From the IMG/VR virus record IMGVR_UViG_3300030098_006072, positions 2,608-44,223 of that record: DNA of 41,616 nucleotides; one strand, written 5' to 3'. Source of the DNA: a virus. Positions 7,788 to 41,616 of this stretch are shown here, one piece after another (position 1 is the first letter of the stretch; the number at the start of each line of letters is the position of its first letter). The position numbers and the translations under genes were made by a program. Below the pieces are notes generated by a model. The model had not been told where the DNA came from, searched no databases, and saw only the letters and a list, made by a program, of their open reading frames with translations.

Positions 7788-7858
7788 GGTTCCGTAGCTT
7801 AACGGGCAAAGTACTCTCGTAAAGAAGAGAGGAAGCAGGTTCGAGTCCTGCCGGAACC
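7788..7858 (+). tRNA. tRNA-like gene with an 8-base anticodon loop, identity uncertain
   Basis: A cloverleaf folds cleanly. The acceptor GGTTCCG pairs with CGGAACC over 7 bp. T8 A9 is followed by a D stem GCTT/AAGT (one G-T pair) with loop AACGGGCA. The T arm GCAGG-TTCGAGT-CCTGC is canonical. The only strong anticodon stem is CTCTC/GAGAG (5 bp), which leaves an 8-base loop GTAAAGAA and a 3-base variable region instead of 7 and 4-5. If the T is position 33, the anticodon would read AAA, which is unusual in bacteria, so I leave the identity open. No CCA is encoded; the following base is T. It lies between the recombinase and small phage genes. It may be a functional unusual tRNA, a frameshift-suppressor type, or decayed. 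Confidence 0.7.
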
Positions 7859-7901
7859 TTTTGACCCAAGTGTGCTAACACAGAACAAAAGGAGAATAAC
7901 T

Positions 7902-8164: not shown

Positions 8165-8422
8165 ATGGCTACATTAAGCGCAAGCTTGCAAAGTTTAAGA
8201 ACAGAGATTGATGAAATATTAGGCATTGAATCTTTGCAAACCGCTTCAAACGTTCACACGGAAATTATTATGAGAGATTTAGAGAAGAGAGTAGCAGAAT
8301 TAAAAGGAGCAGTCTATAAGTCTCTATACAATGCCTATGGTTCAAAAACACCAAGAAGGAGCGAAAAAGATGAAAAAAAAGATAAAACTGGGAGATTTTC
8401 CATCTTTAATAAGCCTCGCTGA
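8165..8422 (+). CDS. Small helical hypothetical protein
   Basis: An 85-residue protein after a strong ribosome site (TAGGAGG, 8155-8161) and ATG at 8165. Residues 1-60 are predicted helical with heptad-like leucines (LQSLRTEIDEIL, then DLEKRVAELKGAV), suggesting a short coiled coil. The last 25 residues are highly charged. Its 3' end overlaps the next gene by 53 bases in another frame, so the charged tail is coded over that gene's start. No recognisable domain. Confidence 0.6.
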   Translation: MATLSASLQSLRTEIDEILGIESLQTASNVHTEIIMRDLEKRVAELKGAVYKSLYNAYGSKTPRRSEKDEKKDKTGRFSIFNKPR

Positions 8423-8630
8423 ACAATACCTTAAATCTGATCAGGAAGAGAAGCAAATTATTTGGCTAGAAATAAAGGATCTTTGCAAAGAGCAGAAATT
8501 CACAGCGTATGAATTTTTTGACACTTTTTGTGAAAATAGGAAAATTGGACCTTATGAGGTCGCCGGAAAGAAAAAACAAAAGAAATTTTCAAAGAAAGAT
8601 TTGAGAAAAAGGAATAAAGAAAGAGGTTAA
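8370..8630 (+). CDS. Small basic hypothetical protein
   Basis: An 86-residue protein. ATG 8370 is chosen because AAGGAG (8357-8362) lies at normal spacing before it, whereas an upstream ATG at 8331 has no good site. The middle is a helical acidic/aromatic region (EIKDLCKEQKFTAYEFFDTF) and the C-terminus is strongly basic (KKKQKKFSKKDLRKRNKER), compatible with nucleic-acid contact. It overlaps the preceding gene by 53 bases and stops one base before the aldehyde dehydrogenase gene. Family not recognised. Confidence 0.6.
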   Translation: MKKKIKLGDFPSLISLAEQYLKSDQEEKQIIWLEIKDLCKEQKFTAYEFFDTFCENRKIGPYEVAGKKKQKKFSKKDLRKRNKERG

Positions 8631-28048: not shown

Positions 28049-28526
28049 GAAGACACAAGAGACAATGTTCAGTAGCAAGACACCAGAATGGGAAACGCCC
28101 AGAGATTTATATGATCGGTTAAATGAATCATGGAACTTTACACTTGATCCTTGTTGCACGAAAGAAACAGCAAAGTGTGAAACATTTTTTACGAAAGATG
28201 ATGATGGCCTCTCACAAGATTGGCAAGGTCACAGAGTATTTATGAATCCACCCTATGGCCGAGGCATGCACGTTTGGCTAGAGAAAGCTTACAGGGAGGG
28301 CTTAAAAAAGGACACAACAGTTGTCTGCCTTGTCCCGTCGAGAACAGATACAAAATGGTTTCATGATTATTGTATGAAAGCACAATCAATAAGATTTATA
28401 AAAGGAAGATTAAAGTTTGGTAATGCTACGGCAGGCGCACCTTTTCCATCGATGCTTGTGATATTCAACGGAAGAGAACCAGCAACGATGTATGGAACAC
28501 CAACAATTTATAGTCATAGGAGGTAA
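28041..28526 (+). CDS. Phage-type DNA N6-adenine methyltransferase
   Basis: A 161-residue methylase of the phage Dam (N-6-adenine-methyltransferase) family. SKTPEWETPRDLYDRLN at the N-terminus (about 11-27), FTLDPCCTKETAKC (about 33-46) and the catalytic FMNPPYGRG (about 66-74) are diagnostic, followed by VCLVPSRTDTKWFHDY. ATG 28041 overlaps the Zn-ribbon stop; an upstream ATG in the same frame at 28008 has no site and would lie inside that gene. It modifies adenine, presumably protecting phage DNA. Sequence and motif order are unlike the D12 enzyme at 18917, so the phage carries two independent adenine methylases. Confidence 0.9.
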   Translation: MDKKTQETMFSSKTPEWETPRDLYDRLNESWNFTLDPCCTKETAKCETFFTKDDDGLSQDWQGHRVFMNPPYGRGMHVWLEKAYREGLKKDTTVVCLVPSRTDTKWFHDYCMKAQSIRFIKGRLKFGNATAGAPFPSMLVIFNGREPATMYGTPTIYSHRR

Positions 28527-28530
28527 CAAA

Positions 28531-29142
28531 ATGTATTGGATGGATGAAACGGAGGCAGAAGCGCAGGACAAGAAACCAGATCCGAACTTCGGCGATAACA
28601 CATCAGACTCAAATATAGAAGTTGTGAATAATCACATTTACTTTTATTCGGGGATTAAGAGCAACAGCATCTTAAAACTTAACAAAAGATTAAAAGAGTT
28701 GGAAACAAAACTTTTAACTTATGCAGACTCTTTAGAGTGGGAACCACCCGGCATTTACCTCCACATCAATAGCTATGGTGGCTCTGTCTTTGCCGGAGTC
28801 GCAGGAATGGATCAGATAAGAAAATGCAAAGTCCCGGTCTACACAGTGATTGATGGCTGTGCCGCTTCTGCGGCCACGTTCTTATCGGTTGTAGGGCAGA
28901 AAAGATATATCAATAAACATGCACACGTTCTAATTCACCAGTTGTCTTCTGGCTTCTGGGGGAAGTTTTCTGCTATCGAAGACGAAATGAAGAACTTGAA
29001 AAAGCTGATGGAAATGATCAAGGATGTATATCTGAATCATACAAAGATTGAAAAGAAACAATTAGAAAAACTATTAAAAAGAGATCTGTGGCTCAATGCT
29101 GAGGAAGCTTTGGAATACGGATTGGTGGATGAGATACTATAA
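28531..29142 (+). CDS. ClpP-like serine protease 1
   Basis: A 203-residue ClpP-fold protease. The catalytic triad is readable: Ser113 in GCAASAATF, His136 in LIHQLSSGFWG and Asp185 in RDLWLNAEEALEYG. The substrate-loop INSYGGSVFAG (about 78-88) matches ClpP. The N-terminus carries an extra acidic segment (residues 1-35, rich in Asp/Glu) not found in cellular ClpP. The start is ATG 28531 after ATAGGAGG; the longer frame from 28492 overlaps the methylase. The protein may act in host or phage protein turnover, or in virion maturation; no unfoldase gene is seen in the window. A second ClpP-like gene at 31530 may form a mixed complex. Confidence 0.92.
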   Translation: MYWMDETEAEAQDKKPDPNFGDNTSDSNIEVVNNHIYFYSGIKSNSILKLNKRLKELETKLLTYADSLEWEPPGIYLHINSYGGSVFAGVAGMDQIRKCKVPVYTVIDGCAASAATFLSVVGQKRYINKHAHVLIHQLSSGFWGKFSAIEDEMKNLKKLMEMIKDVYLNHTKIEKKQLEKLLKRDLWLNAEEALEYGLVDEIL

Positions 29143-31463: not shown

Positions 31464-31494
31464 ACCCGCTACTAAAACTAGCGGGTTTTGTTTT
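31464..31494 (+). terminator. Intrinsic terminator after the acidic protein gene
   Basis: ACCCGCTA (31464-31471) pairs with TAGCGGGT (31479-31486) over 8 bp with loop CTAAAAC, followed by a T-rich tract (TTTTGTTTT). It isolates the acidic protein gene from the second ClpP gene. Confidence 0.85.
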
Positions 31495-31501
31495 ATGGGC
31501 A

Positions 31502-31515
31502 TACTACTTATAATA
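31502..31515 (+). promoter_or_regulatory. Recurrent TACTACTTATAATA motif
   Basis: TACTACTTATAATA directly after the terminator and 14 bases before the ATG of the second ClpP-like gene; it is one base off the ACTATTTATA core. Confidence 0.4.
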
Positions 31516-31529
31516 AAAAGAGGCATTTT

Positions 31530-32210
31530 ATGAAACTCAACGAAGAAAAAGCAGTTCAAGAGGATGACACACCAGAAACAGAAGACGGCATGTTCAGTTT
31601 TCTGATTAACCCTACAGAAAAAGATGAGCCAGAAAAGAGCAGGATGATTGGCATCTATGAAGATGTTTCCGAAGAAGCCGCTGGCTCAATCGTGTTTTCT
31701 CTTTTGGTTCTTCACGAGAATGGAAGATATAAAGTTCCAAAAGAAGGAACGGAAGATAAGGAAGAATTGACTGAAGAGGATCTGGAAGATGCTTGGAAGC
31801 CAATTAGAATGCTTGTTTCAACTCAAGGTGGCTCTGCTCATGAAATGTTCGCAATCCATGATGCAATGAGTTTAGTTAAAAAAGATTGCGAGATTGAAAC
31901 AATTGGAATGGGCAAGGTAATGTCAGCAGGCGTTCTCATTCTGGCGTCCGGCACAAAGGGAAGCAGAAAGATAGGAAAAAACTGTAGAGTTATGATTCAC
32001 CCTGTCGCCGGCGGTGCCGTAGGGGATTTGCAAGACATAGAGAACGATATTCAGGAAATCAAGTGGTTGCAAAAACAATATATAAAATGTTTAGCCGAAG
32101 AAACTAACTTGACAGAGAAGAAGATTCGTGCTATAATGAAAAAGAAAGTTAATTATTATTTCAATGCAGAAGAAGCAATTAAAATGGGAATTGCTGACGA
32201 GATATTATAA
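31530..32210 (+). CDS. ClpP-like protein 2, catalytic Asp replaced
   Basis: A 226-residue ClpP-fold protein. The nucleophile Ser132 (KVMSAGVLI) and His157 (VMIHPVAGG) are present. At the position of the third triad residue, where ClpP1 has RDLWLNAEEA, it has VNYYFNAEEA, i.e. Asn208 instead of Asp. An insertion of about 25 acidic residues (KEGTEDKEELTEEDLEDAW, about 72-90) precedes the STQGGSAHE substrate loop. The Ser-His pair may still be weakly active, or the subunit may be a non-catalytic partner of ClpP1, as ClpR is in other systems. The start is ATG 31530 after AAGAGG. It follows a phage-type motif and precedes the 32223 gene by 12 bases. Confidence 0.82.
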   Translation: MKLNEEKAVQEDDTPETEDGMFSFLINPTEKDEPEKSRMIGIYEDVSEEAAGSIVFSLLVLHENGRYKVPKEGTEDKEELTEEDLEDAWKPIRMLVSTQGGSAHEMFAIHDAMSLVKKDCEIETIGMGKVMSAGVLILASGTKGSRKIGKNCRVMIHPVAGGAVGDLQDIENDIQEIKWLQKQYIKCLAEETNLTEKKIRAIMKKKVNYYFNAEEAIKMGIADEIL

Positions 32211-32222
32211 GAGGGATAAAAC

Positions 32223-33392
32223 ATGAAGATGAAACAATCCGATTTTTTTGATTTGATTCGTGAGGAGTTATCAGGATTTCTGGGCTTGCAAGAACAAGAA
32301 GCGGTAAAGACAGAAGAGGGAGACAAGATACTACTTTCTCTTCCGAAGTTTGTTCCTACCGAGGCATGGGGTACGCCCAACGACCAAACCAGAAAAGAGA
32401 TTGAAACTTACATTAGAAACATCGGTGGCAAAGGTCTTGGTGGTAAGATAAAGTTTTTGGAGGATCTTCAAAAAGGAGTAGTTGACGGAGTGAAGGCGTC
32501 TAGAATCCGTTCTCCCCGTCGTATCATCTCTACATTGATTGTACTTGAAAGCCTTTCGGCTGTCCTAAAATCATTCAGCGAATCAGCCGCTGGCTTTGTA
32601 TTTGAGGGCTTCTTGGCCGCTTTACTAGGCGGATACCAACAGGCAGAAAGAATAGAAGGCAATCTTCCGATTCAGGATGTAATGGCGTTCTCTACAGATC
32701 AGTTGGACTTTACCAAGGGAACTCCAATGAGTTTGAAACTCTTAAGCCCCAAGACACATATCAAGGGGAGTTATACAAACTTGGTAGATGCTATTAACAC
32801 ATTTCCAGAAATGGTTTACGTCGTGGCTACAAAAAAAGGGGATGATGTTTTGTCGATAGGCCAGTTTGTAATTAGCAGGGAAAACTTAGTTGACATTGTT
32901 GCACAAAGAAATGCAGGACTATTAAAACTGCCAGCAAAAATAACAAGAAAAAATCCAGCTACATATTTGAAAAGCTTGCCATGGCCAGAACAGTATGTTG
33001 CTTTGACAAACACGGCAGGGTACACAAAGGCTCCCAAGTCTCTAGGCGGAGAGGAAAAAGAAGAACTGAATGAAGCTAAGGGTCCACAATGGCATTTAAC
33101 ACCAGCAGATATTATGTCTAGAATGTCTGATTCTCTCGATTACAGGGAGCTAGGCACCTTGAGACTTTCACAGGAGGATCTTAAGAAGACAGCTAGATTG
33201 TATATGGAGAATCTTCGAGGAACAATCATGGATATGTTTGAGGGTGTTAAGGATTTGTCAGATAATATTAATACTTATTTTGCTTCTGAAAAAAGAGGAA
33301 CGGCTATTAAAAGCGGAGAAGAGGCAATCAAGGATGCTCAAAAAGTACAGGACGCTACGAGAGAGCAATTAGAACAAGAACAGGAGGGCTAA
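32223..33392 (+). CDS. Hypothetical protein with possible PD-(D/E)XK-type core
   Basis: A 389-residue protein, family not recognised. Around residues 120-190 the order FEGFLAALLGG, GNLPIQDVMAF, GTPMSLKLLS and THIKGSYTNLVDAI resembles the acidic helix, Asp strand and SxK strand of PD-(D/E)XK nucleases, but this is pattern reading only. The N-terminus is a short helical region (DFFDLIREELSGFLGLQ) similar to leaders of phage virion proteins. The C-terminal 80 residues are a charged coiled coil (LSQEDLKKTARLYMENLRG to the end). It could be a virion-packaged enzyme or structural protein. It sits between the second ClpP and GroEL, and its stop overlaps the GroEL start by 1 base. Confidence 0.5.
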   Translation: MKMKQSDFFDLIREELSGFLGLQEQEAVKTEEGDKILLSLPKFVPTEAWGTPNDQTRKEIETYIRNIGGKGLGGKIKFLEDLQKGVVDGVKASRIRSPRRIISTLIVLESLSAVLKSFSESAAGFVFEGFLAALLGGYQQAERIEGNLPIQDVMAFSTDQLDFTKGTPMSLKLLSPKTHIKGSYTNLVDAINTFPEMVYVVATKKGDDVLSIGQFVISRENLVDIVAQRNAGLLKLPAKITRKNPATYLKSLPWPEQYVALTNTAGYTKAPKSLGGEEKEELNEAKGPQWHLTPADIMSRMSDSLDYRELGTLRLSQEDLKKTARLYMENLRGTIMDMFEGVKDLSDNINTYFASEKRGTAIKSGEEAIKDAQKVQDATREQLEQEQEG

Positions 33393-34960
33393 TGCCATTT
33401 CAATTTGATTCAAAGAAATCACTTCAACAGAAAATAGAATCCGGTGTGGATGTATTGGCAGATTACGTTGCATCGACACTCGGCCCAAGGGGAAGGACAG
33501 TCATCCTTCAAGAAAAAGACAAGCGCCCATTCATGACCAAGGATGGCGTGACCGTAGCCAAGTATATAAACCTAGAAGATTCATTTGAAAACCTTGGCGC
33601 ACAAATTATAAAACAAGCATCTGAAAGAACTGCCGCCGATGCGGGCGACGGGACAACAACCACAACTGTATTGGCTAGGGCGATTTACAAAAACGCTCAA
33701 AAGTATATTCAGGCAGGGATCTCTCCTGTAGAATTAAAAAGAGGGATGGACAAGGCTTGTGAAAAGATTGTGGCGAACCTAAAAGAGAAATCTATTCCGA
33801 TCACTTCCATAGAGGAAATTGAAAGAGTCGCAACCATTTCTGCAAATGGTGACAAGCATATTGGAAAACTAATCTCTGAAGCAGTAGAGCAAGCAGGAAG
33901 AGATGGAGCGATCACAATAGAGGAAGGAAACAGCTTAGAGACTTCTTTAGATGTGATAGAAGGTTTCCAAATCGATTCTGGTTATTGTGCCTCGGCTTTC
34001 ATAACAGATGAGCGTAGAGGGGCTGTGAAGCACGATAACGCATTTGTTTTTGTAACAGATTATAAACTAGAAAACGTAGAAGAACTTCTTCCTCTTTTGG
34101 AAACTGTAGCAAGAGATGGAAGGCCTTTGGTGATCGTCGCAGAAGCCATCGAGGGGCAGGCTTTAGCCGCTTTGATTATGAATTCGGTTAGAGGTTCAAT
34201 GAAGATTCTAGCAGTCAAAGCCCCACGCTACGGACAAGAGCGACGAAAGATTATGCAAGATTTAGCTATCTCAACCGGAGCTTCTTTCTTTACTAGAGAG
34301 GCTGGAGTTTCTTTGCGAGATGTAAAGTTGGAGCATTTAGGAATGGTTAAGTCCGTTGATTGTTTGAAAAATGTTACAACGTTTATGGGAGGCAAAGGAG
34401 ATTCTGACGAGATTGATAAACGAATTGATTCTTTGAATGAGGAAATAAAACAAGAAGACGACATTCATGAATGCGAAAGAATCCAAGAAAGAATCACTCG
34501 ATTAGCTTCAGGTGTCTCAATCATCCGTGTAGGCGGGGTTACAGAAGTTGAAATGATTGAAAAGAAGCATAGAATAGAGGATGCTTTGGAAGCAGTTAGA
34601 TCCGCTCAGGCTGAAGGAATCACAGCCGGAGGAGGGATGGCTCTGATCAAGGCATCAAAGAACGTGAAGATTGACGCAGACAACGAAGAGCAGAAAATTG
34701 GTTTACAAATCATTTTACAATCTGCTTCTGCTCCGTTCAAACAAATCGCAGAAAACTGTGGGCTTTCGCCAGATGTTTGTTATGAAAAGGCAAAGAAGAC
34801 AAAGGACGATTACGGGTTTCATTTTATCAATGAGAGGGTTTCAAATTTTGTTGAAGACGGTATTGTAGATCCTGTTAAAGTCGCTCGTTGTGCGCTACAG
34901 AACGCCGTATCCGCAGGCGGAACTTTAATTACATCAAACTATGCAGTTGTTGAAAACTGA
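33392..34960 (+). CDS. groEL: Chaperonin GroEL
   Basis: A 522-residue GroEL. Family elements are clear: TLGPRGRTVIL (about 29-39), MTKDGVTVAK (about 49-58), the ATP-binding AGDGTTTTTVLA (about 86-97), the apical VIEGFQIDSGYCASAF (about 189-204) and the hydrophobic apical EEGNSLETSL region, then GITAGGGMAL near 410-419 in the second equatorial half. It is about 26 residues shorter than E. coli GroEL and lacks the flexible GGM-repeat tail. The apical domain is divergent. It would assist folding of phage proteins, likely with the GroES-like protein at 19912. GroEL genes are known in several large phages. Start ATG overlaps the previous stop; an ACTATTTAG motif follows the gene. Confidence 0.95.
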   Translation: MPFQFDSKKSLQQKIESGVDVLADYVASTLGPRGRTVILQEKDKRPFMTKDGVTVAKYINLEDSFENLGAQIIKQASERTAADAGDGTTTTTVLARAIYKNAQKYIQAGISPVELKRGMDKACEKIVANLKEKSIPITSIEEIERVATISANGDKHIGKLISEAVEQAGRDGAITIEEGNSLETSLDVIEGFQIDSGYCASAFITDERRGAVKHDNAFVFVTDYKLENVEELLPLLETVARDGRPLVIVAEAIEGQALAALIMNSVRGSMKILAVKAPRYGQERRKIMQDLAISTGASFFTREAGVSLRDVKLEHLGMVKSVDCLKNVTTFMGGKGDSDEIDKRIDSLNEEIKQEDDIHECERIQERITRLASGVSIIRVGGVTEVEMIEKKHRIEDALEAVRSAQAEGITAGGGMALIKASKNVKIDADNEEQKIGLQIILQSASAPFKQIAENCGLSPDVCYEKAKKTKDDYGFHFINERVSNFVEDGIVDPVKVARCALQNAVSAGGTLITSNYAVVEN

Positions 34961-35583: not shown

Positions 35584-35844
35584 ATGAAGTTCGAGATGGG
35601 AGATCTAATCAGGTTTGTATGGTCAGATTTCAAAACAGTAGATGGAAGAATTATTTTTCCCGTATCGATCAATAATAAAAGAGGAAATAACATTGGAGTG
35701 ATCATAGGATCGCAAGAGCCAATGTTTGATTCTCGTCTGTATTATACCTACAAAGTCTATTATCAGAATGGACATATTACTTGGGAAGTGGAGGATCATC
35801 TCTACTATCTTCATGACTTTCCCCATAATTTCAATAAGTTATAA
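35584..35844 (+). CDS. SH3-like GDLI mini-protein
   Basis: An 86-residue protein beginning MKFEMGDLIRFVW. The G-D-L-(I/V) start, followed by a second beta block with GNNIGVIIG and a third with YYQNGHITWEVEDHLYYL, is the pattern of a small SH3/KOW-like barrel. It is the first of a family of such proteins that recurs between 38523 and the window end. Function is unknown. It is followed by a gap holding the Hsp20 promoter. Confidence 0.6.
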   Translation: MKFEMGDLIRFVWSDFKTVDGRIIFPVSINNKRGNNIGVIIGSQEPMFDSRLYYTYKVYYQNGHITWEVEDHLYYLHDFPHNFNKL

Positions 35845-35862
35845 AATAATTAAAAAAAGTTC

Positions 35863-35892
35863 TTGACAAATATCAAGCAATGGTTATATTAT
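35863..35892 (+). promoter_or_regulatory. Sigma70 promoter for Hsp20
   Basis: TTGACA (35863-35868) followed at 16-18 bases by TATATT or TATTAT (between 35885 and 35892). The -35 is perfect, the -10 ambiguous. A 55-base leader precedes the Hsp20 ATG at 35949. Confidence 0.75.
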
Positions 35893-35948
35893 ATGTGCAG
35901 AGGGAAAATCTGCAAAAATATAAAAACCAAGTCATAGGAGGAAATATT

Positions 35949-36359
35949 ATGACAAGCTTGAGATTAAGAAACGGAAACGGAGTACCTTCCATATTTGATA
36001 CTTTCTTCGATGAGATTTTTAATGTTCCATCGTTTAGAGTATCCCCTGAAAAAAGCACTAAACCACAAGTGAGGGTTGATGTAAATGATGTGTCTTATGA
36101 CGTATCCATCGCAGCTCCCGGCCTTCCGAAAGACGCAGTGGATGTTTCAATTAGAGAAAATATCCTGACAGTTGCACACGAAAACAAAGAAGAAACAGAC
36201 AATAGTTATTTTTGCTCTTCGTTCAAGAAATCTTGGACACTTCCCAAAGACGTAGATGTCGACAAAATCACAGCTAAATATAACAACGGCGTATTTAATG
36301 TGAGCGTTCCACGGGTGCAACCAGTCGAACCGGAGGTCAAGAAAATCAAAGTAAAATAA
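35949..36359 (+). CDS. Hsp20 small heat-shock protein
   Basis: A 136-residue alpha-crystallin-type chaperone. The N-terminus (SIFDTFFDEIFNVPSF) is typical of bacterial Hsp20. The ACD follows: VRVDVNDVSYDVSIAAPGLPKDAVDVSIRENILTV (about 42-76), FKKSWTLPKDVDVDKITAKYNNGVFNVSVPR (about 91-121), with the conserved GVFNVSVP strand. A C-terminal I-x-V-like KKIKVK closes it. It would hold unfolded proteins for GroEL. Hsp20-like genes are known from cyanophages. The start is ATG 35949 after AGGAGG; the longer frame has no site. A terminator follows. Confidence 0.92.
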   Translation: MTSLRLRNGNGVPSIFDTFFDEIFNVPSFRVSPEKSTKPQVRVDVNDVSYDVSIAAPGLPKDAVDVSIRENILTVAHENKEETDNSYFCSSFKKSWTLPKDVDVDKITAKYNNGVFNVSVPRVQPVEPEVKKIKVK

Positions 36360-36383
36360 ATGTTTTTCATCTTTCTTTCAACT

Positions 36384-36407
36384 AGGGGGGTTTTGCCCCC
36401 CTTTTTT
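36384..36407 (+). terminator. Intrinsic terminator after Hsp20
   Basis: AGGGGGG (36384-36390) pairs with CCCCCCT (36396-36402) around loop TTTTG, followed by a T run to 36407. Confidence 0.9.
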
Positions 36408-36417
36408 GTGTTTTCTG

Positions 36418-36434
36418 TAACTATTTATAATATA
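36418..36434 (+). promoter_or_regulatory. Recurrent TAACTATTTATAATATA motif
   Basis: A full ACTATTTATAATA element directly after the Hsp20 terminator and 17 bases before the next ATG. Terminator, motif and gene order repeats that at 12572 and 31502. Confidence 0.45.
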
Positions 36435-36451
36435 AACTTTGGAGAATGATA

Positions 36452-36784
36452 ATGAAGAGATTATTGGCAGAAGACGTAGAGATAGACATTTATACTATTG
36501 AAATGTTGTTTTCTTTTAGTTCACAAAAAAGTGTTGAAGTGGGCAAGCTAGAAAACATCCTAAGAGCAGTTCCTAATGTTACAGTTGTTACTTCAAAAGA
36601 GACGATCAAGAGAGGCGGAAACACCTATATGAGAATGACGATCAAGATTAACTCTTTATATGTCGGCAACCAAAGAGTTGAGTCTTATATCAAGAATACT
36701 TTGATACCTTCGATCAAGAAGAACACTCCCGGAGATTATCGACCTAACGTATTGGATTGGAAGGTAATTCGAAAAAGTTCTTGA
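36452..36784 (+). CDS. Small hypothetical protein, possible virion-associated
   Basis: A 110-residue protein. ATG 36452 is chosen over 36446 because GGAG (36441-36444) then has proper spacing. It begins MKRLLAEDVEIDIY, a leader resembling those of some phage structural proteins. The rest has mixed strand pattern (NVTVVTSKETIKRGG; YMRMTIKINSLYVG) with a basic end (RPNVLDWKVIRKSS). No family recognised. Its 3' end overlaps the next promoter by 4 bases. Confidence 0.55.
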   Translation: MKRLLAEDVEIDIYTIEMLFSFSSQKSVEVGKLENILRAVPNVTVVTSKETIKRGGNTYMRMTIKINSLYVGNQRVESYIKNTLIPSIKKNTPGDYRPNVLDWKVIRKSS

Positions 36785-36810
36785 CAAAACGATCCGATCT
36801 GTGGTATGAT
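36781..36810 (+). promoter_or_regulatory. Sigma70 promoter for the metallopeptidase gene
   Basis: TTGACA (36781-36786), an 18-base spacer and TATGAT (36805-36810). The transcript leader contains ACAATGAGAGGAG (36818-36830), the same 13 bases as at 5642-5654. Confidence 0.8.
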
Positions 36811-36835
36811 CTTATACACAATGAGAGGAGCGCAT

Positions 36836-37258
36836 ATGGACAGAAAACTATTAGACTGGGTACATAAAAAAGGTTATAAGTTAGAAGCATCTGATCATGA
36901 TCAATACGATCCAGATGAGAAGACAATATATTATAACAAGAGATTATCAAAGAAAAGCAAGCTATATACAATTCTGCATGAGTGCGGTCATCTGCTCGTA
37001 CAACAAAATATATTTTTATATGAAAAGAGACACAAGTGTCAAGTCGAGGGTCTTCAAGATGCTCGAAAGCGCAGATCCTTGCGATGGCGCGTCGGCTTTC
37101 TCAAGGAAGAGTATGACGCATGGGATCGGGGATTTAATCTAGCCAAGAGGTTGAAGATACCAATAGACGAAGACTGTTATTATAATTATGCTTCGAAATG
37201 CTTGGCATCATATTGCAGATGGGTAACGGACAAAGAGTGGCATCAATACGATTATTAA
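36836..37258 (+). CDS. HExxH zinc metallopeptidase-like protein
   Basis: A 140-residue protein; ATG 36836 follows GAGAGGAG. It has one HExxH motif, HECGH (His48, Glu49, His52), preceded by a YYNKRLSKKSKLYTIL helix, as in ImmA/IrrE-type and SprT-like minimal zincins. A third metal ligand is not obvious; Glu94/Asp97 in KEEYDAWDRG, about 45 residues later, are candidates. Several basic and aromatic residues follow to the end. In other systems ImmA-type proteins cleave repressors; in this apparently lytic phage the target is unknown. A strong dedicated promoter suggests early expression. Confidence 0.7.
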   Translation: MDRKLLDWVHKKGYKLEASDHDQYDPDEKTIYYNKRLSKKSKLYTILHECGHLLVQQNIFLYEKRHKCQVEGLQDARKRRSLRWRVGFLKEEYDAWDRGFNLAKRLKIPIDEDCYYNYASKCLASYCRWVTDKEWHQYDY

Positions 37259-37269
37259 TGGAGGGTGAG

Positions 37270-37410
37270 ATGATTTGGAAAATACCAGTACTTTGTTTAG
37301 CTTTGTATTTGGCGGTGAATATAGTAGCGGCTACTTATTTGTTTTTCAAAGAAAAGAATGAAATGGAGATGATCGTTAGCGCAATTGAAAACGCAGACAA
37401 GGAGGGGTAA
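37270..37410 (+). CDS. Small single-pass membrane protein
   Basis: A 46-residue peptide with ATG 37270 preceded by GGAGGGTGAG. One membrane helix (VLCLALYLAVNIVAATYLFF, about residues 7-26) is followed by a charged cytoplasmic tail (KEKNEMEMIVSAIENADKEG). It has no signal motif. Tiny membrane proteins are frequent in phages but no role is assigned. Overlaps the UvsE start by one base. Confidence 0.5.
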   Translation: MIWKIPVLCLALYLAVNIVAATYLFFKEKNEMEMIVSAIENADKEG

Positions 37411-38324
37411 TGAACTTGGGCTATGCTTGTATCAACATGGGTTTCTCAAACCGATCTAAAAAAGATCGGATCACAACGAACAGAACTATGATCAAAAAGA
37501 CATTTGATCAGAAGGGGATCGACTACGCATCTGAACTAGCATTACAAAACTGCAAAGACCTTTTGCCTATTCTACAGTGGAACGAAGAGAACAACATTCG
37601 TTTCTTTCGCTTGTCCTCGGAGTTCTTTCCGTGGGCTTCTCATTATGATTTGTTTGACATGCCCGACATTGACGGCATAGAAAAAGCTTTGGCTGACGCA
37701 GGGGACTTTGCAAAACAGTACGGTCATCGCTTGACTAGTCACCCCGGCCCGTTCAACAAGCTAGCCAGTCCCAAAGAACAAGTGGTTCTCAATACCATCA
37801 CAGACTTGGAGATACACGGACAGTTGTTTGATCTTATGGGCCTTAGTCGCACACCGTACAACAAGCTTAACATCCATGTTGGCGCACACTACGGCGACAA
37901 AGCTATGGCTACATCAAACTTCTGCAAGAACTTCCATCGTCTTTCAGACGCTGTAAAGTCCCGTCTTACCGTAGAGAACGACGACAAAGCAAGTTTGTAT
38001 TCAGTCAAAGAACTATACGAGATGATTTACAAAGAGATTGGTATTCCAATTGTTTTCGATTATCATCATCACAAGTTCTGCACTGGCGGTCAAACAGAAC
38101 AAGAAGCTTTGGCTCTTGCCGTGTCTACTTGGGGCGACATCAAGCCCGTCGTTCATTATTCAGAAAGCAAAGCAGAAGAGCAAAACAATCCAAAGATCAG
38201 GCCACAGGCTCATTCAGATTATATACAAAAAAAGATCTTGACTTATGATCTCGACGTTGATATAATGGTAGAAGCAAAAGCTAAAGAGCTTTCCATCTTG
38301 CAATACAAAAAGCTTTGGTGCTAG
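37410..38324 (+). CDS. uvsE: UV damage endonuclease (UvsE/UVDE family)
   Basis: A 304-residue TIM-barrel UV-dimer endonuclease. The family opening NLGYACINMGF is followed by NNIRFFRLSSEFFPWASHY (about 60-78) and GHRLTSHPGPFNKLASP, then LNIHVGAHYGDK (about 151-162), RLTVENDDK (about 186-194), IPIVFDYHHHKF (about 210-221) and VVHYSESK (about 249). His and Glu ligands of the trinuclear metal site are in these positions. It nicks DNA 5' of UV dimers, starting an alternative excision repair. This is a direct repair enzyme of benefit to a virus exposed to sunlight. An internal promoter for the next genes lies at 38238. Confidence 0.93.
   Translation: MNLGYACINMGFSNRSKKDRITTNRTMIKKTFDQKGIDYASELALQNCKDLLPILQWNEENNIRFFRLSSEFFPWASHYDLFDMPDIDGIEKALADAGDFAKQYGHRLTSHPGPFNKLASPKEQVVLNTITDLEIHGQLFDLMGLSRTPYNKLNIHVGAHYGDKAMATSNFCKNFHRLSDAVKSRLTVENDDKASLYSVKELYEMIYKEIGIPIVFDYHHHKFCTGGQTEQEALALAVSTWGDIKPVVHYSESKAEEQNNPKIRPQAHSDYIQKKILTYDLDVDIMVEAKAKELSILQYKKLWC
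38238..38266 (+). promoter_or_regulatory. Internal sigma70-like promoter in the uvsE end
   Basis: TTGACT (38238-38243), a 17-base spacer and TATAAT (38261-38266) inside the uvsE gene. It may drive the FmdB-type and GDLV genes downstream. Confidence 0.5.
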
Positions 38325-38334
38325 GAGAAATCAA

Positions 38335-38523
38335 ATGCCCGTTTATGAGTTTGCATGTTTAGAATGCAAGAGGATACAGGAAAGGATACAGAAGTTTGAA
38401 GACCCGGAGCCGAATTGTGATCTCTGTGATCAAAGAACAATCAGGATCATATCGGCTTCAACATTTATATTGAAAGGGGGAGGCTGGTATAAAGACGGAT
38501 ATACAAAAGCCCAGAAAGAGTGA
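38335..38523 (+). CDS. FmdB-type zinc-ribbon protein
   Basis: A 62-residue protein starting MPVYEFACLECKR, the FmdB/CxxC regulatory-protein opening. Two CxxC pairs, CLECKR (about 9-12) and CDLCDQ (about 31-34), bind one zinc, followed by IRIISASTFILKGGGWYKDG, the usual C-terminal strand and glycine-rich turn. The family is often annotated as a putative regulatory protein; its biochemistry is poorly defined. Its stop overlaps the next ATG by one base. Confidence 0.85.
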   Translation: MPVYEFACLECKRIQERIQKFEDPEPNCDLCDQRTIRIISASTFILKGGGWYKDGYTKAQKE

Positions 38524-38786
38524 TGAAACATTTTGAAGTAGGAGATTTAGTAACAATCAAAACCATAAGAGATTTGCAAGATATTGAAAAGTCCAGAGGG
38601 GTTATTGTAAAGGAGTTATCAGAACTAAAGTTCGGAAAGCCGATTTACAGGGTAATCTGGCAAGACAGCATGAAAGAAAGCTACGAACCATACGAATACT
38701 TGGAGCAATATGATGAAAAGAAAAGACTATCTAAAGAAGTACGATCTAATACAGGTGGCTCAAAACCACCCAGAACACCCAAATAA
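38523..38786 (+). CDS. SH3-like GDLV mini-protein
   Basis: An 87-residue protein, MKHFEVGDLVTIKTI, followed by a strand pattern RGVIVKELSE and PIYRVIWQDSMKESYEPYEYLEQY. The GDLV start, a GVI strand and a terminal VIWQ strand place it in the GDLV series. The C-terminal tail (VRSNTGGSKPPRTPK) is basic and may be a coding by-product of the 77-base overlap with the next gene. Start ATG 38523 is used because 38520 would be GTG. Confidence 0.6.
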   Translation: MKHFEVGDLVTIKTIRDLQDIEKSRGVIVKELSELKFGKPIYRVIWQDSMKESYEPYEYLEQYDEKKRLSKEVRSNTGGSKPPRTPK

Positions 38787-39324
38787 AAAAGGAATATACT
38801 TAAGCACATTTTGGAGATCGCCACTTGGGACATCAGAAACTTTTGATTATGTCAGGGTAGAAGACAAGGAGACAGGAAGGCAATTCGCAGTTCGCTTTGA
38901 TCATGTCGTTAAAATCGTAGATGGAAAGCCTGTACCTTTTGTTGAAGAGGTTAAGGATGACAAAGCCAAGAAAGCCAAGAAAAACAAAATGCGTAAAAAA
39001 GAATACCCAGATAGAGAAATTGAATGGGGTCAATGGATTAGATATGACTTGAACGATGACACAACTGTGATCAGACCTCACGCCAGTACCACTGATCGAT
39101 ACGCAAACACTCGTTTTGAAACAGAAATGAAAAACAAAAAGATGATCAAGAAACGATGGGCCAAGCACATTGGATGGGCTGTGCGTCCGAAGTTTGGAGA
39201 TGTTAACACCCTGATCTTCGTAAAATCTTTGGAAGAAGCGGAGAAATATTCTTTACCCTTTCAGCCCCAATTCGCTGTTGATGAGGAGTCAGAAGAAGAT
39301 GTCATCTTCGAAAGTTACTTTTAA
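38710..39324 (+). CDS. Hypothetical protein in the GDLV region
   Basis: A 204-residue protein; ATG 38710 lies at the end of the preceding gene after TGGAGCAAT. The N-terminal part (YDLIQVAQNHPEHPNKKGIYLSTFWRS) recalls the GDLV start, with a D-L-I core, so it may be a larger, two-part relative. A lysine-rich linker (about 88-100) follows and the C-terminal half is a mixed fold (WGQWIRYDLNDDTTVIRP; HIGWAVRPKFGDVNTLIFVKSLEEAEKY). The gene overlaps the previous by 77 bases. Function unknown. Confidence 0.55.
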   Translation: MMKRKDYLKKYDLIQVAQNHPEHPNKKGIYLSTFWRSPLGTSETFDYVRVEDKETGRQFAVRFDHVVKIVDGKPVPFVEEVKDDKAKKAKKNKMRKKEYPDREIEWGQWIRYDLNDDTTVIRPHASTTDRYANTRFETEMKNKKMIKKRWAKHIGWAVRPKFGDVNTLIFVKSLEEAEKYSLPFQPQFAVDEESEEDVIFESYF

Positions 39325-39355
39325 CTCCTTGAAAACATGGTTGAAAAAAAAGTGG

Positions 39356-39384
39356 TTGACAATTAAAATATTCTTTGTTATAAT
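39356..39384 (+). promoter_or_regulatory. Sigma70 promoter, extended -10
   Basis: TTGACA (39356-39361), a 17-base spacer and TATAAT (39379-39384) preceded by TGT. It drives the GDLV cluster at 39411. Confidence 0.9.
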
Positions 39385-39410
39385 GATGGCAGAAGATAAG
39401 GAGAATAAAA

Positions 39411-39626
39411 ATGATTGAGATCGGATCACTTGTGAAACTAAGAGAAGCTTTCATTGCCAAAGACGAATGGATGGTGAGAGATTATGAGAACTTGATCGGA
39501 ATGGTTGTTGGAAAGTGGGATGGCGATGATGAGTTCAGAATACAGTGGATGGGCAAGGGAGTTTATTTTGACGGAGCCTATACAAACATTACTTGGCATT
39601 ACAGCTATGACTTAGAGGCGGTGTAA
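39411..39626 (+). CDS. SH3-like mini-protein (GSLV variant)
   Basis: A 71-residue protein, MIEIGSLVKLREAF, then LIGMVVGKWDGDDEFRIQWMGKGVYFDG. GSLV replaces GDLV but the strand order (start, GMVV, RIQW) is the same as in its neighbours. It is first behind the promoter at 39356 and overlaps the next gene by one base. Function unknown. Confidence 0.6.
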   Translation: MIEIGSLVKLREAFIAKDEWMVRDYENLIGMVVGKWDGDDEFRIQWMGKGVYFDGAYTNITWHYSYDLEAV

Positions 39627-39796
39627 TGAGAATAAAAGTAGGTGACTTAATTGAATTGAAAGCAAAGCCCACAAGAGAATCATGGAACCACTTCATGTTA
39701 GTAATAGATATTATAACTGATTCCGCTTGCGTCTTGTCGCCGAAAACAGGTCGCAAGATGTGGGTAGGCAAAGACAGGATAAAGAAAGTGCAATGA
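39626..39796 (+). CDS. SH3-like GDLI mini-protein
   Basis: A 56-residue protein, MRIKVGDLIELKAKP, followed by MLVIDIITDSACVLSPKTG and MWVGKDRIKKVQ. The strand layout (GDLI, MLVIDI, CVLS, MWV) fits a five-strand SH3/KOW-like barrel. The ATG overlaps the previous stop by one base and its own stop overlaps the next start (ATGA), so translation is coupled along the array. Confidence 0.55.
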   Translation: MRIKVGDLIELKAKPTRESWNHFMLVIDIITDSACVLSPKTGRKMWVGKDRIKKVQ

Positions 39797-40047
39797 AGAT
39801 CGGCGACTTGGTAACTTGGAGGCAATCTTCTTTTTTGAGCGACGATTATGGCGTCGTAGTGGATATATCCGAAGTTGACTATGGCGAAGATCAATATGAT
39901 TCTGGCAGTGCAGTCGTCACTGTCATCTGGAATAACGCACAAAAAAACAAAATGAAATGGAGAATACGAGCGCATTATCTGGAGGTTATAAAATATTATG
40001 GCCAAGAATGGCGAAAAGCAACAACCGACTTGGGAGAGGATTCATGA
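39793..40047 (+). CDS. SH3-like GDLV mini-protein
   Basis: An 84-residue protein, MKIGDLVTWRQSSF, then YGVVVDISEVDYG and SAVVTVIWNNAQKNKMKWR, matching the GDLV series (start, GVVV, VTVIW). The ATG overlaps the previous stop. The C-terminal 16 residues overlap the next gene (50 bases). Function unknown. Confidence 0.6.
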   Translation: MKIGDLVTWRQSSFLSDDYGVVVDISEVDYGEDQYDSGSAVVTVIWNNAQKNKMKWRIRAHYLEVIKYYGQEWRKATTDLGEDS

Positions 40048-40189
40048 CGAGGCTTGTGCAAAGGGTGAAATGTACTACCTCGATCCAGACACTGGGTATA
40101 GAGTCTTTACTCGATTAGCGTTAGAATCTAGGGGCAAGTGCTGTGATTGTAAGTGCCGTCATTGTCCCTATAGAATCAGTAACTTATAA
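39998..40189 (+). CDS. DUF5522-like cysteine-rich protein
   Basis: A 63-residue protein. The C-terminal half has YYLDPDTGYRVFTRLALESRG, then CCDCKCRHCPY, matching the DUF5522 pattern (Y-DP-TGY-VFT, then a cysteine cluster ending CRHCPY). Four or five cysteines could bind zinc or an iron-sulfur cluster. ATG follows GGAGG at long spacing (13 bases). It overlaps the preceding GDLV gene by 50 bases. The family is found in bacteria, eukaryotes and some phages, function unknown. Confidence 0.75.
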   Translation: MAKNGEKQQPTWERIHDEACAKGEMYYLDPDTGYRVFTRLALESRGKCCDCKCRHCPYRISNL

Positions 40190-40207
40190 AATAGTTAAAA
40201 AAACTTC

Positions 40208-40236
40208 TTGACTTCCTTCCTTCCTTTTGCTATACT
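40208..40236 (+). promoter_or_regulatory. Sigma70-like promoter
   Basis: TTGACT (40208-40213), a 17-base spacer made of CTTC repeats and TATACT (40231-40236) with a TGC extension. It drives the gene at 40287 through a 45-base leader. Confidence 0.8.
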
Positions 40237-40286
40237 TTGATCATCGTTAAGGATCGTATGAAACAGATCACATACAGGAGATCACA

Positions 40287-41000
40287 ATGTCCACACAAAG
40301 AGAATCAAAAGTAGACGAATCATGGAAAGTTGTTTTTCACACTACCGGTAGTGAGACTTATTGGGTTCGTGCGAAAGACGAATGCGAACTAGATGAGCAT
40401 GGCGCATACGAACTTGAACAGATCGATCATCAGCACGAATGGAATGATAGTGAACACGATTGCAACATTCGTTATCTATCTTCGGATGAGGACAGGGAAC
40501 GACTAGAACTTCATAAGATGTGGAAAAACGGAGAGACTAAGCACGGCGAGCAGTATTATATAAATGGTGTCAAAGAGTGGTGCAATGTTCAAATCACCAG
40601 AGAACATCATGGCGCTATCTTTGAAAACTGCTACTTTGATTCGATTCTCTGCTTTGATGGCGTTGACTTCGATCAGATTACTCTTGTTAACTGTGAGTTT
40701 TACAGCCGCATGACAAACATTAGAAATAACTGCAAAGGCTTGACCACTGAAACCATCGCAGAAAAAGGCACTCTAATGTTTGAGGGAGATCGGGACTGGA
40801 ACCACGATACCCATCGATACGACTGGTCTTACAAGCCTGTTGTTGTTATGAACTTCGAGAACACAAAGATTGGCCATAATGTTGTCAATACAAAGTTCTT
40901 GGCTGTTAGAGCTGATGGGACACAATTGAACCATGCAGGAAACGTTGTAACCGAAGAAAAGATGTTGAAGATGACGTCAGACAATCCTCTTGGTTTTTAG
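40287..41000 (+). CDS. Hypothetical protein with pentapeptide-like segment
   Basis: A 237-residue acidic protein behind its own promoter, ATG after ACAGGAG (about 40274-40280). The N-terminal 70 residues are Glu/His rich (WVRAKDECELDEHGAYELEQ). From about residue 110 a run GAIFENCYFDSILCFDGVDF and ITLVNCEFYS shows aromatic and hydrophobic residues at about 5-residue spacing, like a pentapeptide or beta-helix. A second such run VVVMNFENTKIGHNVVNTKF lies near 190-210. No family is named. Pentapeptide proteins can mimic DNA or bind gyrase, but only a loose resemblance is seen. Confidence 0.55.
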   Translation: MSTQRESKVDESWKVVFHTTGSETYWVRAKDECELDEHGAYELEQIDHQHEWNDSEHDCNIRYLSSDEDRERLELHKMWKNGETKHGEQYYINGVKEWCNVQITREHHGAIFENCYFDSILCFDGVDFDQITLVNCEFYSRMTNIRNNCKGLTTETIAEKGTLMFEGDRDWNHDTHRYDWSYKPVVVMNFENTKIGHNVVNTKFLAVRADGTQLNHAGNVVTEEKMLKMTSDNPLGF

Positions 41001-41010
41001 GGGGAATAAA

Positions 41011-41190
41011 ATGAAAATCGGTGACTTAGTAAGATGGACAAACACTGACGAAGAAGACATGGGAATCGTCACGAAAGTTGTGTCTTCTACAAGCATTGGT
41101 GGTTATTTGGTTATTGTGCGATGGGCTTCATCGCCTGAAGATAACGCATGGTATGATACCCATGATACGTACATGGAGCTTTTTCAATGA
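41011..41190 (+). CDS. SH3-like GDLV mini-protein
   Basis: A 59-residue protein, MKIGDLVRWTNTDEE, then DMGIVTKVVSS and YLVIVRWASSPED. The start, GIVT strand and VIVRW strand match the series. The ATG follows GGGGGAATAAA. Overlaps the next gene by 4 bases. Function unknown. Confidence 0.6.
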   Translation: MKIGDLVRWTNTDEEDMGIVTKVVSSTSIGGYLVIVRWASSPEDNAWYDTHDTYMELFQ

Positions 41191-41390
41191 AAAAAGGTGA
41201 TTTAGTTTCTTATACATGTCCCGACTTCCTCAGAGGAAATCAGAAAAAGACTGTTGGAGTGGTCACAAACCCTAAACCCAGACATTGGACAAATCCATAC
41301 TACAAGCACAGTGCCGACCACGTAGAGGTTATTTGGGCAAGTGGCAAAACAAGTATAGAGTGGGATTGTTATTTGGAGAAGATAGGATGA
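41187..41390 (+). CDS. SH3-like GDLV mini-protein
   Basis: A 67-residue protein, MKKGDLVSYTCPDF, then KTVGVVTNPKPRHW and HVEVIWASGKTSIEWDCYLEKIG. The GVVT and VEVIW strands match the series. The ATG overlaps the previous stop (ATGA), and its own stop overlaps the next ATG. Confidence 0.6.
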   Translation: MKKGDLVSYTCPDFLRGNQKKTVGVVTNPKPRHWTNPYYKHSADHVEVIWASGKTSIEWDCYLEKIG

Positions 41391-41548
41391 ATAAAGGTGA
41401 TTTAGTTGAGTGGAAAGCCTTTGGCTCCAGAGACATCGGCGTTATCACAGAAATAAATGGAAAATGGGTCAAAATCATATGGATGTATGAGCCCCAACAC
41501 AGCGGAGATTACCGCATGGATCACGAACAATTGGGGTTTTTGAAGTGA
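41387..41548 (+). CDS. SH3-like GDLV mini-protein
   Basis: A 53-residue protein, MNKGDLVEWKAFGS, then IGVITEINGKWVKIIWMYEPQ. It is the most compact complete member and shows the core: GDLV-x-W start, GVIT strand, VKIIW strand, and a final LGFL. The ATG overlaps the previous stop; its own stop overlaps the next GTG. Confidence 0.6.
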   Translation: MNKGDLVEWKAFGSRDIGVITEINGKWVKIIWMYEPQHSGDYRMDHEQLGFLK

Positions 41549-41616
41549 AGGTCGGTGACTTGGTAAGATTGAAAGAGCGATGGAAAAACAAAGATTTCAT
41601 CTGGGAAAGGGACATT
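41545..41616 (+). CDS. SH3-like GDLV mini-protein (3' partial)
   Basis: A frame starting with GTG 41545 inside the previous stop reads MKVGDLVRLKERWKNK and is cut by the window edge at residue 24. It is another array member by its start and coupling, so the array continues beyond the window. Confidence 0.5.
   Translation, partial: MKVGDLVRLKERWKNKDFIWERDI

Follow-up and report, generated by a model that had tools for sequence, protein, structure and literature searches.

What is represented by the run of very small genes at the downstream end of the viral sequence considered here, and how might a phage maintain so many copies of one small-protein plan side by side? The sequence comprises bases 2608-44223 of the 44,223-base IMG/VR record IMGVR_UViG_3300030098_006072, and this whole stretch of 41,616 nucleotides (nt) is referred to as the window. 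A preliminary description of it had drawn attention to nine short open reading frames (ORFs) between positions 35584 and 41616, which it took to be a tandem array of related SH3-like proteins beginning with a GDLV motif, possibly an arsenal directed against the host or its defences. We assign a rough probability of 0.6 to the following explanation, taken jointly in all of its parts: the window holds the first part of a mini-gene array that encodes a single family of five-stranded small-barrel proteins of about 50-90 amino acids (aa), an array with junctions built into its genes, in which whole units would be exchanged and the products would form a repertoire of target-binding proteins.

All nine ORFs proved to be real open frames. 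They are listed here with the other features of the array region and with the expectation values (E) obtained with a profile of the family.

35584..35844, + strand: family member 1 (86 aa, long loop 1); profile E 2.5e-5, motif-free profile 9.7e-4
38523..38786, + strand: family member 2 (87 aa); profile E 8.5e-8
38710..39324, + strand: 204-aa ORF, not a member, with a 77-nt overlap with member 2; profile E 28
39356..39384, + strand: sigma-70-type promoter TTGACA-17-TATAAT (12/12), ahead of 39411
39411..39626, + strand: family member 3 (71 aa); profile E 6.6e-6, motif-free profile 1.6e-5
39626..39796, + strand: family member 4 (56 aa); profile E 3.2e-5, missed by the motif-free profile (E 11)
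39793..40047, + strand: family member 5 (84 aa); profile E 9e-12; ATGA junction, 4 nt
39998..40189, + strand: 63-aa Cys-rich ORF, a non-member within the array
40208..40236, + strand: sigma-70-type promoter (10/12), ahead of 40287
40287..41000, + strand: 237-aa ORF without known family, interrupting the array
41011..41190, + strand: family member 6 (59 aa), structure modelled; profile E 4.5e-13
41187..41390, + strand: family member 7 (67 aa); profile E 4.4e-10; ATGA junction; GGAG from the ATG-GAG codons of member 6
41387..41548, + strand: family member 8 (53 aa); profile E 5e-8; ATGA junction; GGAG from the TTG-GAG codons of member 7
41545..41616, + strand: family member 9, first 24 aa only, GTG start; profile E 7.5e-5

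That these nine ORFs constitute one family is borne out by a profile of 110 members from other viruses, from which the window rows were left out (the underlying alignment had initially included six window members, which were then taken out). When the profile was run against the 734 six-frame stretches of the window that are at least 30 codons long, its top nine matches were exactly the nine ORFs (E 4.5e-13 to 7.5e-5); the frame ranked tenth had an E of 0.019. A version of the profile stripped of the GDLV start motif continued to place seven of them ahead of all other frames (E at most 0.0037; next frame 0.14; best reversed control 0.81), so their kinship rests on more than a common start. A previous profile, constructed entirely without the window, retrieved seven members at E below 1e-3 and, at 0.014, the truncated one; it did not retrieve 39411. 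Motif-bearing ORFs number eight in the array, against a mean of 0.55 in shuffled sequences. The 204-aa ORF at 38710, which resembles the plan by eye, was considered as a tenth member and rejected on its profile score. Pfam and PHROG scans of the window members gave nothing significant, and no member matched a known anti-defence or host-takeover family in these two databases (PADLOC was not searched).

The layout of the nine genes is less regular than the phrase tandem array conveys. Members 1 and 2 lie apart from the others; member 1 is solitary, upstream of an Hsp20 gene, and has an ortholog (40% identity) at the matching place in a related locus (L004, 6427-6696). Between members 5 and 6 the series is broken by the Cys-rich ORF and the 237-aa ORF; relatives of the latter were looked for and none were found, and none were found in IMG/VR for the 204-aa ORF. 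The array is indeed still open where the window stops, with member 9 incomplete; the cause is the end of the public IMG/VR record and not the choice of window. The overlaps of 1-4 bases described among the last six members are present as one 1-nt junction (TAATG, 39411>39626) and four of 4 nt (39626>39793, 41011>41187, 41187>41387 and 41387>41545), the only forms seen in the window; close genetic coupling of the members is upheld. In several places the upstream gene also supplies the Shine-Dalgarno sequence of the next: TTG-GAG, ATG-GAG, TTA-GAG-G and CTG-GAG-GTT codons give GGAG or GAGG before 38710, 41187, 41387, 39626 and 39998. The TTG-GAG (Leu-Glu) codons of member 2 are the source of the GGAG ahead of the non-member at 38710, and the LEVI codons of member 5 (CTG-GAG-GTT-ATA) supply GGAGGT ahead of the one at 39998. 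TTG-GGG codons precede 41545, and 39793 is without such an embedded signal. The start of member 9 reads GTGAAGGTCGGTGACTTGGT and contains TGA in both alternative frames.

The proposed SH3/KOW-like barrel plan was examined with AlphaFold2 models of two members, both built on family alignments. The model of 41011 is a five-stranded barrel (strands 6-9, 17-26, 31-38, 45-49 and 55-57) with a mean predicted local distance difference test score (pLDDT) of 86, and that of 35584, the most divergent member and the one with a long first loop, has five strands in the same order at a pLDDT of 84. Among solved structures in the PDB, the nearest to the first are Tudor, chromo and SH3 domains, with template modelling (TM) scores of 0.7-0.8, and the nearest to the second are PetP and ribosomal S4e (TM about 0.5). 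Against PDB sequences the profile gave weak matches to NusG KOW (0.0033), L14 (0.0054), Spt5 (0.01) and uL24 (0.022), as well as to photosystem I subunit IV, and single members matched the CarD/TRCF RID (1.1e-5) and the PcrA/UvrD Tudor domain (8.6e-4). No window member reached a Pfam gathering threshold, that of KOW included, and the likeness to NusG and Spt5 KOW domains is weak. Since these matches are spread over many barrel families, the predicted models leave the SH3/KOW-like small-barrel fold class well supported and do not single out one named family; the resemblance to Tudor domains would be one of fold only. Neither of the two outcomes named beforehand as refuting the preliminary description, different predicted folds or a profile unable to retrieve the other members, was obtained. 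Many of the best viral fold matches (BFVD) belong to a single block of accessions, A0A516L... and A0A516M..., which may represent further arrays within one group of viral genomes.

A DNA pattern of two MK(V/I)GDLV starts 150-180 bases apart located at least 100 stretches of IMG/VR, mostly from large Far-T4-like phages; no exact match to it was present in the genome of any of 84,980 species of bacteria and archaea. Some of these stretches contain 25-29 motif ORFs within 10-13 kb. Whole records hold 9-38 members in each of 20 selected by the pattern; of six records selected by their UvdE genes, four have 5-17 members, one has three and one has none. The number of members is thus variable among related phages. 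By their gp23 and terminase sequences, the array-bearing phages tested appear to be Far-T4-like: a T4-type Gp23 was found in nine of 12 array-bearing records, the nearest terminases to that of the L006 record are those of Microcystis phage Mel-JY01 and Flavobacterium phage immuto (46%), and the capsid protein of the L009 record is nearest to those of LR756508, immuto, Mel-JY01 and RM378. The neighbourhood of RM378, immuto and Mel-JY01 is the Far-T4 group of Roux et al. (PMC4360716). The window phage itself is tied to this group only by synteny with L006 (gene order Hsp20, M78-like peptidase, UvdE). No member was found at E 0.1 in the named isolates RM378, immuto and Mel-JY01; the megaphages LR756508 and LR756511 gave one and two weak matches, respectively. 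The INPHARED phages showed no DNA similarity to the last 8 kb of the window, tblastn returned a single match at E 7 for one member and none for eleven members joined together, and a search with the junction consensus given below yielded matches at the level of chance only. The UvdE gene of the window, for a UV-damage endonuclease (37410-38324), has 335 relatives in IMG/VR by pattern, many of them in large contigs. Near the UvdE gene of L006 (6371-7101 and 11077-11325) there are three paralogous ORFs with repeats that look MORN-like by eye, which carry MRTKEIRKWINEGGSLPQDLT or a close variant near their starts.

It is in these relatives that the architecture of the junctions is most distinct. 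Close junctions between family genes have an overlap of 14 nt in 488 of 721 cases (68%) in a first sample of loci and an overlap of 4 nt in 134; the corresponding counts in a second sample are 375 and 50 of 483, where loci were picked by the presence of one 14-nt junction, which was thereby guaranteed in each, and only the remainder is informative. Neighbouring genes outside of the family in the same loci overlap by 14 nt in only six of 196 cases (3%) and by 4 nt in 54. In bacterial gene spacing generally, the enriched overlaps are those of 4, 1 and 8 nt, with 4 nt the commonest (PMC12548453). The 14-nt overlap is explained by the start of the next gene. In most array genes of the relatives the first 14-20 nt read RTGAAAGTCGGTGATTTGGT, encoding MKVGDLV, and the start ATG AAA GTC GGT GAT contains TGA in both other frames, as A-TGA (an overlap of 4 nt) and as GG-TGA-T (an overlap of 14 nt), so that the upstream gene ends inside the start of its neighbour. 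Both alternative-frame stops are present in 758 of 1259 starts. The tail (N/S)ESR of the upstream protein is the start of the next gene read in another frame, and the last strand of that protein, L-E-V, is encoded as TTGGAGGTN, which doubles as the Shine-Dalgarno sequence of the next gene; L-E-V-I is written TTG GAG GTN ATH just before the next start. The consensus of 427 distinct junction contexts is T-GGAGGT-R-AT-M-A-RTGAAAGTCGGTGA. Codon choice at the junction follows this signal: the Glu of LEV is GAG in 259 of 274 cases, as compared to 44% GAG in gene bodies, and codon 3 is GTC in 240 of 338 (all codons at that position), as compared to 20% of the Val codons in gene bodies.

Related contigs differ from each other by whole genes, and most breakpoints of these differences coincide with the start motif. 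This was the case for 17 of 23 breakpoints in a first sample (random placement: mean 2.5, maximum 8 in 2000 trials) and for 29 of 33 in a second (mean 4.5, maximum 11 in 1000). The two samples partly overlap (L237, for example, is part of the L014 contig) and a number of the pairs are closely related, for which reason the two results were not multiplied. In the clearest example, removal of bases 8364-8539, a single gene, from L092 gives L093 exactly over about 1.1 kb; the ends of the deletion are two copies of the 20-nt repeat ATGAAAGTCGGTGATTTGGT, and the overlap of the following gene shifts from 4 to 14 nt while both frames still end cleanly. In the comparison of L014 with L017, a gene with a GTG start takes over the ATG start of a lost gene. 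With most breakpoints at the start motif and whole genes as the units, gene content turns over by a clean exchange of units. On the array strand of L151, L139 and L092, the arrays also contain other repeated small families, interspersed (MGYRS..., NVWVV/MKVWVM... and a zinc-knuckle-like family), which may share this turnover.

The preliminary description had taken the divergence of the copies as a sign of fast diversification rather than recent duplication. Orthologs in different contigs speak against the former: over 115 pairs, with gene ends trimmed, the pooled ratio of the proportions of nonsynonymous and synonymous differences (pN/pS) is 0.28, and for the 101 pairs with enough divergence the median ratio of the corresponding rates (dN/dS) is 0.17, with none above 1. 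Such purifying selection indicates that the copies are maintained proteins; the part that changes quickly is gene content, i.e. the presence or absence of individual genes. The latter part of the statement holds for the most part, since pairs within a locus are at most 81% identical, apart from one pair in L181 at 99%. Clustering at 45% identity divides 794 distinct proteins into 520 groups. Conservation amounts to 1.59 bits in the strands versus 0.81 in the loops, and the two main loops vary in length (11-30 residues for the span G4-G18, 12-29 for G18-W38). Net charge ranges from -15 to +13 with a median of 0 among 1096 proteins; judged by charge, a uniformly nucleic-acid-binding set was considered and is not supported.

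From these observations a mechanism can be proposed in which the start motif of most genes in the arrays of the relatives would have three jobs: it starts its own gene, it stops the upstream gene in either of the other frames, and it provides a repeat for recombination. Recombination between such repeats, based on homology or microhomology and carried out by phage or host machinery of the RecA type, would add or remove whole genes without leaving a scar; among the proteins of the window phage is one of the RecA family (PF00154, 3.3e-35). Translational coupling would carry ribosomes from one gene on to the next. The proteins might be binding modules that combine a fixed scaffold with two length-variable loops and differing charge, each aimed at a different target, probably of the host or its defences, in which case an exchange of genes would change the repertoire of the phage. 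A scaffold that stays the same, loops and charge that vary, the coexistence of many members and rapid change in their presence or absence fit with a repertoire of binding proteins with different targets; the anti-host or anti-defence arsenal suggested earlier is likewise an inference. A bolder version of the proposal would have small binders on one scaffold encoded by cassettes that need neither a dedicated recombinase nor a separate site, their start being at once start region, two-frame stop and recombination seam, so that any gene could be put in, taken out or swapped in any frame with its neighbours intact; we consider its chances to be slightly less than even.

Several points weigh against the proposal. 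The role of the members as binders is an inference, and both structural models depend on family alignments. The 14-nt junction and the turnover come from relatives rather than from the window, the closest relative of which by UvdE, L006, has only a few members, joined by other junctions, and the choice of loci by their start motif is biased towards regular arrays. The contigs are metagenomic, some are from the same or close populations, and the events are not all independent; misassembly around the 20-nt repeat is a further conceivable cause of the differences, but an unlikely one given that the repeat surrounds unique genes. Longer overlaps are also reported to couple translation less well than that of 4 nt (PMC12548453), and the 14-nt overlap may therefore be a consequence of the start motif instead of a device for coupling.

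On function, the main rival is that the members are KOW- or Tudor-like modules that tune transcription or translation in the host by binding to RNA polymerase, the ribosome or nucleic acid, with the copies providing dosage and overlapping specificity. The CarD/TRCF RID and PcrA/UvrD Tudor domains that single members match are linked to RNA polymerase, and the weak matches of the profile to the KOW domains of NusG and Spt5 and to L14 and uL24 point in the same direction; but a charge centred on 0 is unlike a common nucleic-acid-binding surface, window members reach no Pfam threshold for such domains, and we regard this explanation as rather unlikely. Less probable still is that these are ordinary compact phage operons, whose overlaps and Shine-Dalgarno sequences result from gene density and whose motif is kept only for the sake of the protein sequence MKVGDLV. 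Besides the single 1-nt junction, the window shows nothing except the 4-nt overlap that is commonest in bacteria (PMC12548453). As applied to the relatives, this view is hard to hold in the face of 14-nt overlaps at 68-78% of the close family junctions, as against 3% for their neighbours in the same loci, and of codon choice in the motif that is far from that of gene bodies. The least probable of the alternatives, in our estimation, treats the array as a neutral or selfish by-product, in which repeats at the starts cause units to duplicate and drop out and the proteins have little function. The location of breakpoints at a short repeat and the very recent duplicate pair in L181 would be expected from it; purifying selection on the orthologs would not, nor would copies within one array that are almost all old and divergent and were thus retained long after their duplication.

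The proposed repertoire of mini-barrels can be compared to several known systems. SH3-like small barrels (KOW, Tudor, chromo, CAP-Gly and PetP; Pfam KOW, DUF2158 and MIB_HERC2) share the five-stranded barrel of both predicted models, and weak matches extend across the entire superfamily, but no single family matches most members; the array members are stand-alone genes for 50-90 aa in large tandem arrays, and no Pfam or PHROG family covers them. Host-takeover clusters in lytic phages such as SPO1 likewise consist of many tiny genes behind host-type promoters; their genes are mostly unrelated, whereas one fold fills most of the mini-barrel array. Integron cassette arrays resemble the present case in that small tandem genes are gained and lost singly at a conserved boundary. 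That boundary is here a 20-nt direct repeat inside coding sequence, in the start region, rather than a stand-alone attC site (hairpins were not computed), and the genes overlap and belong to a single protein family. In phage T4, recombination at short homologies brings about segmental amplification of dmd-tifA (PMC9391042) and amplification driven by SegB (PMC13096335), which raises the dose of an anti-defence protein (PMC9391042, PMC13096335). Such recombinational addition and removal of small tandem genes, already known from these studies to take place at short homologies, is also seen in the relatives of the window array; the repeat is in this case a built-in start motif common to most genes, the units are single genes, and the copies are divergent and long kept rather than near-identical. 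In open-access papers we found no phage mini-gene arrays of this kind described, and no account of a start motif that acts as start, two-frame stop and seam where dozens of divergent genes with a common fold are arrayed. If the proposal is correct, a phage needs no dedicated recombinase to maintain and rearrange dozens of small effectors, and the reading-frame problem of gene joining is solved within the start motif. The rate of exchange at the seam should be directly measurable. The arrays account for a sizeable unannotated part of Far-T4-like genomes, and they offer more than a thousand mini-proteins that lack annotation, in which variable loops are set on a clear scaffold, for screening against host or defence targets.

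Seven perfect promoters of the form TTGACA-16/17-TATAAT occur on the + strand of the 41-kb window, before many gene blocks.

5603, 13730, 18694, 22288, 26093, 32109 and 39356, + strand: perfect promoters

The idea that perfect sigma-70 promoters mark the arrays as specially early was rejected, as their density is 0.21 per kb in arrays versus 0.24 and they also precede many other genes of the window; since host-type promoters stand equally before other gene blocks, the timing of expression cannot be read from them. One region of the window encodes a chaperonin (Cpn60, 33392-34960), Hsp20 (35880-36359) and two ClpP-like proteins (28492-29142 and 31488-32210, of which the Pfam scan covered only that at 31488). 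ARAGORN also reported, without assigning its type, a tRNA-like gene with a four-base anticodon (aaag) at 7788-7859 on the + strand.

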